From positions 731,300 to 795,299 of the forward strand of contig OX639990.1 of NCBI GenBank assembly GCA_951828535.1: a DNA stretch of 64,000 nucleotides. The letters are read 5' to 3'. Positions 39,968-41,579 of this stretch are shown piece by piece. Source of the DNA: an uncultured Candidatus Entotheonella sp. Lineage in GTDB: Bacteria > Tectomicrobia > Entotheonellia > Entotheonellales > Entotheonellaceae. The translations under genes and the position numbers were made by a program. The notes beneath the pieces are model-generated. The model was not told where the DNA came from, made no database searches, and worked only from the letters and a program-made list of their open reading frames with translations. Every line of letters starts with the position of its first letter. Position 1 is the first letter of the stretch.

Positions 39968-40051
39968 GCTTTGCGTACGGGAATCAGCTCTAATGCCATT
40001 GCTTCAAGGAAATTGTGCGCTGGTCAAGTGTCAATCAAACTGGAGATACCT

Positions 40052-40795
40052 GTGGAAACCGTGAGGCTTTATAAGCGGGTGGGTTGAAGTTCATGCCGCG
40101 CTCTGGAAGAGTTGCTTGCTTCGTGGAAGGTCGATTTCGAGGCGATTGATGTCGAGGCGCAGCCGGACGCCATGGATACGCTGCACGGGCATGGGATCAC
40201 GCGGGTGCCTGCGGTAATCGTTAGAGACCGCGCGGTACACGGATGGAATCCGGCGGCGGTGGCAGATTTGGTCGGGGTGACCTACGACGATGGCTTGGCG
40301 TTGCCACTGCCGGAACTGCAGGCGCGCCTCAACACGATTCTGCAGGCCGCGCAACGGGCCATCATGCAGGTTCCGGCCCAGCATATGTACATGCGGACGC
40401 CGGGGCGCGACCGCTCAGTGTATCAACTCGCCTACCACCTGTTCCGGGTCGGTCAGGCGTACCGCGACGCCATGGAGCAGGGCTATCTCCCGGAAGCCTG
40501 GTTTGAGGAGCAACCGCCGCCAGGTATGCCCGATATGGCAGCCATTGCGCAATACGGCGAGAGGGTGCGCCACCGTTTGCACGATTGGTGGGGTCGGCCC
40601 GAGGCGTTCGATGGTACAGTGGAAACTTATTACGGCCCACAGCAGGCAGCGGCATTCTTCCAGCGCACCGTTTGGCACACGGCGCAGCATCTGCGGCAGT
40701 TTTACGATCTGCTCGATCTGATGGGCGTAACACCCGAAGCGCCGCTCGCAGCTGAGGATTTCGCCGGATTGCCCTTGCCGCAGAGCGTATGGTAA
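40052..40795 (+). CDS. Probable selenoprotein: glutaredoxin-like domain fused to DinB-like domain, in-frame TGA
   Basis: Read from GTG 40052 (GGAG six bases upstream) the frame gives M-E-T-V-R-L-Y-K-R-V-G, then TGA (40085-40087), then S-S-C-R-A-L-E-E-L-L-A-S-W-K and onward to TAA at 40793-40795, 247 residues in all. The TGA falls exactly where a glutaredoxin has the first cysteine of C-x-x-C, giving U-S-S-C; sequence on both sides fits the fold, including the cis-proline strand T-R-V-P-A-V-I-V. Residues ~90-247 form a DinB-like four-helix domain with metal-ligand histidines in Y-Q-L-A-Y-H-L and W-H-T-A-Q-H-L. Without recoding only a start at TTG 40112 is possible, which lacks half of the redox motif. 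Alternatives are a nonsense mutation or sequencing error of TGC/TGT. Confidence 0.75.
40088..40115 (+). promoter_or_regulatory. Candidate bacterial SECIS hairpin
   Basis: Directly after the TGA, bases 40098-40104 (gcgctct) pair with 40108-40115 (agagttgc, one bulged T), with a G-T pair inside, closing the loop gga at 40105-40107. The loop begins 17 bases after the TGA and carries GG at its start; the E. coli fdhF element has its GG after 18 bases. The stem is short, so the call depends on the coding context. Confidence 0.5.
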
Positions 40796-40841: not shown

Positions 40842-41579
40842 ATGCAGAAACCGCCGCTGCCAGTCCTGCTCGGGCAGGCGATGCGCCTGGGCGTGGTTTT
40901 AGGACTACTGGGGCTGCTCTTATGGGTTGGGTTATCGGCACCGCTGCGGGAGGCGCTTTGGGCGCTGGTCACCAATCCCAACACCGAAGGCGTGCAACGC
41001 CTTCTCGCTTCCACTCCTGTTTGGCTCCCTCTTGTCATTATCGGACTGATGATCTTGCACACCCTGGTGCCCGTGCCGGCCGAGTTCCTGGCTTTGGCGG
41101 CGGGCATGGCGCTTGGGCCGCTGTGGGGGTTTGTCACCATTTGGGTCGGCGCCCTGCTGGGTGCATACCTGGGCTTCCTGCTGGCCCGTTCCTTCGGGCA
41201 GCCTGTGCTGCGCCTGCTGGTCAGCCCTGCCAGGCTTGAACGCTCGCAGCATTGGTTGCAGCAAATCGACATACCTATCCTGCTCGCCGTGCGCCTCCTG
41301 CCAATTATCTCCTTCAACCTGATCAATTTCGCCCTCGGCCTGACCACCATTAGCTGGTGGCAGTTTAGCTGGACCACGGCTATCGGCATCATCCCTGCAA
41401 CGATCTTGATGGTATCGTTCGGCGCCCATTTGAGCGACTGGCGGATGCTCGCCCTCATGGCGCTGGCGGCGCTGCTGTTATGCCTGGGCGGGTACGCCAT
41501 ATTGAACCGCCGCCGAGCGAGGCAACAGGCCGCCTTCAATCCAACGCCACAAAGATGCAATGGCGTATACGATCATTGA
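40842..41579 (+). CDS. TVP38/TMEM64 (DedA-superfamily) membrane protein
   Basis: 245 residues with five to six hydrophobic segments. The family core is P-A-E-F-L-A-L-A-A-G-M-A-L-G-P-L-W-G-F, then G-A-L-L-G-A-Y-L-G-F-L-L-A-R and V-R-L-L-P-I-I-S-F-N-L-I-N-F-A-L-G, a re-entrant-loop pattern of DedA-like lipid or ion transporters. A tagggaggag ribosome site precedes ATG 40842. Its 3' end overlaps the convergent cupin gene by 44 bases. Confidence 0.88.
   Translation: MQKPPLPVLLGQAMRLGVVLGLLGLLLWVGLSAPLREALWALVTNPNTEGVQRLLASTPVWLPLVIIGLMILHTLVPVPAEFLALAAGMALGPLWGFVTIWVGALLGAYLGFLLARSFGQPVLRLLVSPARLERSQHWLQQIDIPILLAVRLLPIISFNLINFALGLTTISWWQFSWTTAIGIIPATILMVSFGAHLSDWRMLALMALAALLLCLGGYAILNRRRARQQAAFNPTPQRCNGVYDH

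Follow-up and report, generated by a model that had tools for sequence, protein, structure and literature searches.

The window, i.e., the whole 64,000-nucleotide stretch of Candidatus Entotheonella DNA analyzed here, contains a reading frame of 248 codons that runs from GTG 40052 to TAA 40793–40795 and has one internal stop, a TGA at codon 12, followed in frame by codons for Ser-Ser-Cys. The initial annotation had described a single frame broken only by this TGA, which would give U-S-S-C, with glutaredoxin (Grx) and DinB domains after it. On re-reading, the frame proved to be correctly described, and two Pfam models score above their cut-offs: Glutaredoxin (PF00462) at residues 4–61, with 33.5 bits against a cut-off of 22.9, and DinB_2 (PF12867) at residues 106–216, with 26.3 bits against 24.8. 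The features of the locus are collected in Table 1.

Table 1. Features of the predicted Grx-DinB selenoprotein gene (window coordinates) and DinB-only paralogues in other genomes; A1 is a 17-sequence alignment
Feature	Position	Strand	Details	Basis
Shine-Dalgarno-like motif GGAG	40042..40045	+	6 nt 5′ of the GTG start	sequence
Predicted Grx-DinB selenoprotein CDS	40052..40795	+	247 aa, Sec at residue 12, ~28 kDa	single in-frame TGA; full-length homologues; dN/dS ~0.13
Glutaredoxin/NrdH-like domain (predicted)	40052..40291	+	residues 1–80	PF00462; model vs 3zit, 7c10, 1h75
TGA, predicted to be read as selenocysteine (Sec12)	40085..40087	+	first position of UxxC	TGA in 39/39 Sec-type loci; TGC/TGT in Cys homologues
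Possible bSECIS hairpin	40086..40122	+	apical stem 40100–40112; apical AAG-AGUUG-CUU 40107–40117	RNA fold
TGC, resolving Cys15 of UxxC (predicted)	40094..40096	+		invariant in A1
DinB/STL four-helix metal-binding domain (predicted)	40295..40750	+	residues 82–233	PF12867; model vs 6iz2, 2nsg, 8f5v
His129	40436..40438	+	first His of the DinB metal triad	invariant in A1
His209	40676..40678	+	second triad His	invariant in A1
His213	40688..40690	+	third triad His	invariant in A1
DinB-only paralogues	G125:C6:15174-15683; G126:C21:27101-27622; G123:C96:6525-7028; G127:C109:27430-27930			

An AlphaFold2 model of the protein, built from 14 sequences, has a mean pLDDT of 90.5 and a pTM of 0.84. Compared with the PDB, its residues 2–77 resemble the redoxin BC3987 (3zit, Z 13.5), cGrx1 (7c10, Z 11.9), and NrdH (1h75, Z 11.6). 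Residues 82–233 match the DinB protein 6iz2 (Z 14.9, rmsd 2.4, 140 residues aligned), the mycothiol-dependent maleylpyruvate isomerase 2nsg (Z 12.1), and the mycothiol S-transferase structure 8f5v, which contains mycothiol and Zn (Z 11.8). Among the columns invariant in A1 are U12, C15, P53 (the cis-Pro), H129, H209, and H213, and the residues around the three histidines are likewise invariant across phyla. As predicted from these comparisons, the product is a two-domain protein in which an NrdH/Grx-like module is joined to a DinB/STL bundle with an intact His triad. Membership in the GST family was considered and rejected: the GST rows of the full-chain fold search have an rmsd above 4 over ~130 residues, and these rows are treated as reflecting the thioredoxin fold plus helical bundle that GSTs and the model appear to have in common.

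In our opinion, it is very probable that UGA codon 12 is recoded to selenocysteine (Sec) and that the two domains are those named above; the host SelB and tRNA-Sec would decode the codon. The first line of evidence is the conservation of the TGA itself: 39 Sec-type loci, the window included, were read singly, and each has it at this very codon. These loci come from Entotheonella relatives, Rokubacteria/Methylomirabilota, a SAR324 genome, and gammaproteobacterial MAGs, at 27–91% identity. At the upper end of this range is the sister locus OY282375.1 (“uncultured Candidatus Entotheonella sp.”), which encodes a 91% identical protein with the same TGA. In Methylomirabilota, 48 of the 95 genomes match at E ≤ 1e-92 with a TGA inside every match, one of which, an incomplete one, also has a TAG. 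The gene is carried by the bacterium of the window, which is of a sponge-symbiont type, and about 50 uncultured relatives; no relatives were found among viral contigs.

The second line of evidence is selection. When the window is compared with its sister (NG86), codons 13–247 have a dN of 0.041 and a dS of 0.312, and the 11 codons 5′ of the TGA differ by one nonsynonymous and two synonymous changes. To judge from these substitutions, the codons 3′ of the TGA are under purifying selection, and gene decay is excluded because their dN/dS is only ~0.13. A nonsense mutation or a sequencing error in a decaying gene would fit a lone stop in one gene, which resembles early decay, and would fit the weak hairpin that follows the TGA in the window. 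Yet all 39 loci, drawn from several phyla, have the same TGA, and this, together with the selection acting after it and the Sec machinery of the genome, leaves decay or error with virtually no probability, in agreement with the initial annotation, which had argued for recoding rather than decay.

The third line of evidence comes from homologues in which the TGA is replaced. A look at this column, proposed together with the claim of recoding, found either the TGA or, in a separate set of homologues, a Cys codon. These Cys forms, with TGC or TGT at codon 12, include Roseomonas, two Caballeronia, Variovorax, and Rhizobium plasmid genes and one gammaproteobacterial genome, and their alignments span all or nearly all of the protein; the sample comprised five loci with TGC/TGT, plus L100 with TGC. 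Three RefSeq Cys forms (WP_207446294.1, WP_244817409.1, and WP_162571355.1) give full-length two-domain matches at 31–34% identity. Were the TGA a true stop, it would end a short leader ORF, and a DinB-like protein with only part of the Grx would start further on, for example, at TTG 40112. Such a 227-aa ORF (40112–40795) does exist, but a glutaredoxin first strand conserved with relatives is encoded by the 11 codons that precede the TGA, the UxxC and the codons after it are conserved as protein, and the Cys homologues continue through the site, which makes termination here extremely unlikely. Conservation of the TGA, purifying selection, and the Cys homologues together rule out a pseudogene, a sequencing error, and a plain stop.

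The fourth line of evidence is the decoding machinery. The genome of the window (3.6 Mb, one contig) encodes a tRNA-Sec with anticodon TCA (73.9 bits, above cut-off), overlapping selA (606 bits) and selB (363 bits) genes, with winged-helix domains in SelB, and selD (319 bits); thus, every component that the initial annotation had suggested looking for was found. More broadly, selB is present in all five Entotheonella-group genomes, and selA is above cut-off in 83 of the 95 Methylomirabilota genomes. It should be noted that selA was undetected in a few carriers of the gene (G061, G127, G143, and G152) and is represented by a mere fragment in G119; we attribute this, without proof, to gaps in the MAGs. 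The identity of the inserted residue is not readable from sequence alone, and the UGA might specify a standard amino acid through near-cognate read-through or a reassigned code. This is very unlikely, given that TGA is the ordinary terminator of the same gene in some relatives (e.g., L018), that the genome has SelA, SelB, and SelD besides a tRNA-Sec reading UGA, and that the homologous column holds Cys, forming the classic Sec/Cys pair.

The selA-selB pair lies at L101:6761-10098 (G000:C1, about 3374760-3378097), with a CMD/AhpD-like gene downstream of it. SelA/SelB homologues were placed in a putative RiPP operon in a 2025 Entotheonella paper (PMC12858407). The pair in the genome of the window looks like a canonical Sec operon, since its neighbors are ordinary housekeeping genes.

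The weakest point of the case for recoding is the window's own weak hairpin. The segment 40085–40125 folds with a z of −0.4, no better than 78% of its synonymous shuffles, although the gene retains the apical AAGAGUUGCUU found in relatives. Most Rokubacteria, as well as L019 and L020, have a strong hairpin that starts ~10–14 nt after the TGA and has a short apical loop; in Rokubacteria, it surpasses its synonymous-codon controls. Across the 39 TGA loci, the helix after the TGA forms a mean of 10.1 of 12 pairs, compared with 7.5 in synonymous shuffles; in five Cys loci, the same helix has a mean of 5.4, compared with 4.5. The named helix fits 75% of cells, as opposed to 41–53% when it is slid, a contribution that comes mostly from Rokubacteria. 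RNAalifold returned no consensus structure across all 17 sequences.

In a tree of these proteins, two Sec/Cys changes are required, a count to be read with a small sample, an arbitrary rooting, and the very long branch of L021 in mind. Sec and Cys have probably been exchanged at codon 12, because the tree places the Sec clade of gammaproteobacteria together with the Cys forms. The long-branched sequence is a very diverged Grx-DinB homologue (L021:1495-2256 in G003) with 27% identity and a TGA at the same codon. The genome of the window also contains a second, stand-alone NrdH/Grx-like gene of ~75 aa (L024:1495-1722; G000:C1:3394119-3394337), which has an in-frame TGA at its UxxC and a good hairpin 3′ of it; the same is seen in G001, G002, and G003. 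Some Rokubacteria have DinB-only paralogues without Grx that match residues ~75–248 (Table 1).

The protein can be compared with several known families. Selenoprotein glutaredoxins (PF00462, UxxC; e.g., that of Clostridium sp. OhILAs) share with it the Grx fold, a Sec at the first position of UxxC, and Cys homologues, but they are listed as single-Grx-domain proteins, whereas here the Grx is fused to DinB/STL. The UXX-star (seleno)proteins (NF041212, NF041211, NF041114, and NF047338) have a Grx-like domain whose Sec is at the equivalent position. Assignment to this family was nevertheless rejected, as the scores are far below every NCBIfam cut-off: 30.4 bits against 66 for NF041212, 24.3 against 100 for NF041211, 24.5 against 97 for NF047338, and 12.7 against 72 for NF041114. 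The HUGP/GUXX-star protein NF045501 is also a Sec-Grx-like fusion, but its partner domain is not DinB. STL enzymes (BstA-H, mycothiol S-transferase, and mycothiol-dependent maleylpyruvate isomerase) share the four-helix bundle and three conserved histidines (PMC5815605); unlike the present protein, DinB/YfiT STL enzymes use a diffusible thiol and have no Grx domain, and their known second domains differ from Grx. The same two-domain layout occurs in RefSeq entries named “glutaredoxin domain-containing protein” or “DinB family protein,” which have Cys (TGC/TGT), not Sec, and for which no characterization was found.

The initial annotation had called the selenoprotein undescribed. In the sources consulted, this holds for the fusion, with two reservations: Sec-glutaredoxins with UxxC were known before, and RefSeq already annotates the fusion in its Cys version. 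Among the 119 prokaryotic selenoprotein families and subfamilies of a 2026 inventory are Sec-Grx and UXX-star but no DinB protein, and NCBIfam has no model for a Grx-DinB fusion. A search of the open-licence literature returned nothing relevant that joins selenoprotein or selenocysteine with DinB. The fusion would give the prokaryotic selenoproteome a further domain architecture, one that several uncultured phyla have conserved: it occurs in about half of the Methylomirabilota genomes that were searched and also in the Entotheonella group, SAR324, and gammaproteobacterial MAGs. Automated annotation that halts at the TGA would miss the gene or label it a truncated DinB protein.

If the reading of codon 12 is right, selenium chemistry would be linked to the DinB/STL thiol-transferase fold, and a function can be tentatively proposed. 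The Sec12 selenolate would attack a disulfide or thiol adduct, Cys15 would resolve the selenenylsulfide, and the thioredoxin system would supply electrons; the STL domain would bind a divalent metal together with its substrate, a thiol or an electrophile. The fusion might in this way couple metal-assisted thiol transfer, or thiol-dependent isomerization, to Sec-based reduction. Three histidines are likewise the only residues conserved throughout the eight STL enzymes of B. subtilis, each of which is a metal-dependent bacillithiol transferase (PMC5815605). The protein could also be a plain redox reductase, in which all of the chemistry on protein disulfides, peroxides, or mixed disulfides would fall to the Grx-Sec module and DinB would only bind substrate or be structural. 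The Grx half is nearest to NrdH and cGrx redoxins, and a review presumes an oxidoreductase function for most thioredoxin-fold proteins that contain Sec (PMC13188914). This seems rather unlikely, however, as the invariance of H129, H209, H213, and nearby residues across phyla suggests an active metal site.

A further possibility is that the Sec12 selenolate (or a thiolate) acts in cis at the DinB metal site as nucleophile or thiol donor and replaces the diffusible thiol that DinB enzymes normally require (PMC5815605; PMC10950700). Neither BshC nor glutathione synthetase was found in the genome of the window, and neither is above cut-off in G000–G003 or in the Rokubacteria tested (the genomes in which neither was found being G000–G003, G060–G062, G066, G116, and G128); among 12 genomes tested, BshC occurs in one (G004) and glutathione synthetase above cut-off in one (G063). 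These searches covered two thiol pathways only, though, and the gammaproteobacterial Sec form coexists with GshB and G004 has BshC, so that action in cis appears improbable. Were it true, the protein would be a self-contained thiol (selenol) transferase working without a glutathione-type diffusible cofactor, in lineages without detected glutathione or bacillithiol synthesis genes. The coupling of thiol transfer to Sec-based reduction, which we prefer, raises the question of which thiol is used in such bacteria.

No gene neighbors conserved across phyla were found. In Rokubacteria, an enoyl-CoA hydratase gene is often upstream; an amidase gene adjoins in two gammaproteobacterial MAGs and in Roseomonas, where an isochorismatase is also present; and the Entotheonella neighbors encode an M15-type peptidase and a VTT-domain protein. 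Because the neighbors differ between phyla, they suggest no single pathway, and a function based on an operon was rejected on the same ground. The VTT-domain (DedA/TVP38-type) membrane protein is encoded at 40842–41579 of the window, starting 47 nt after the gene, and adjoins it in the sister genome too, though not in other phyla.
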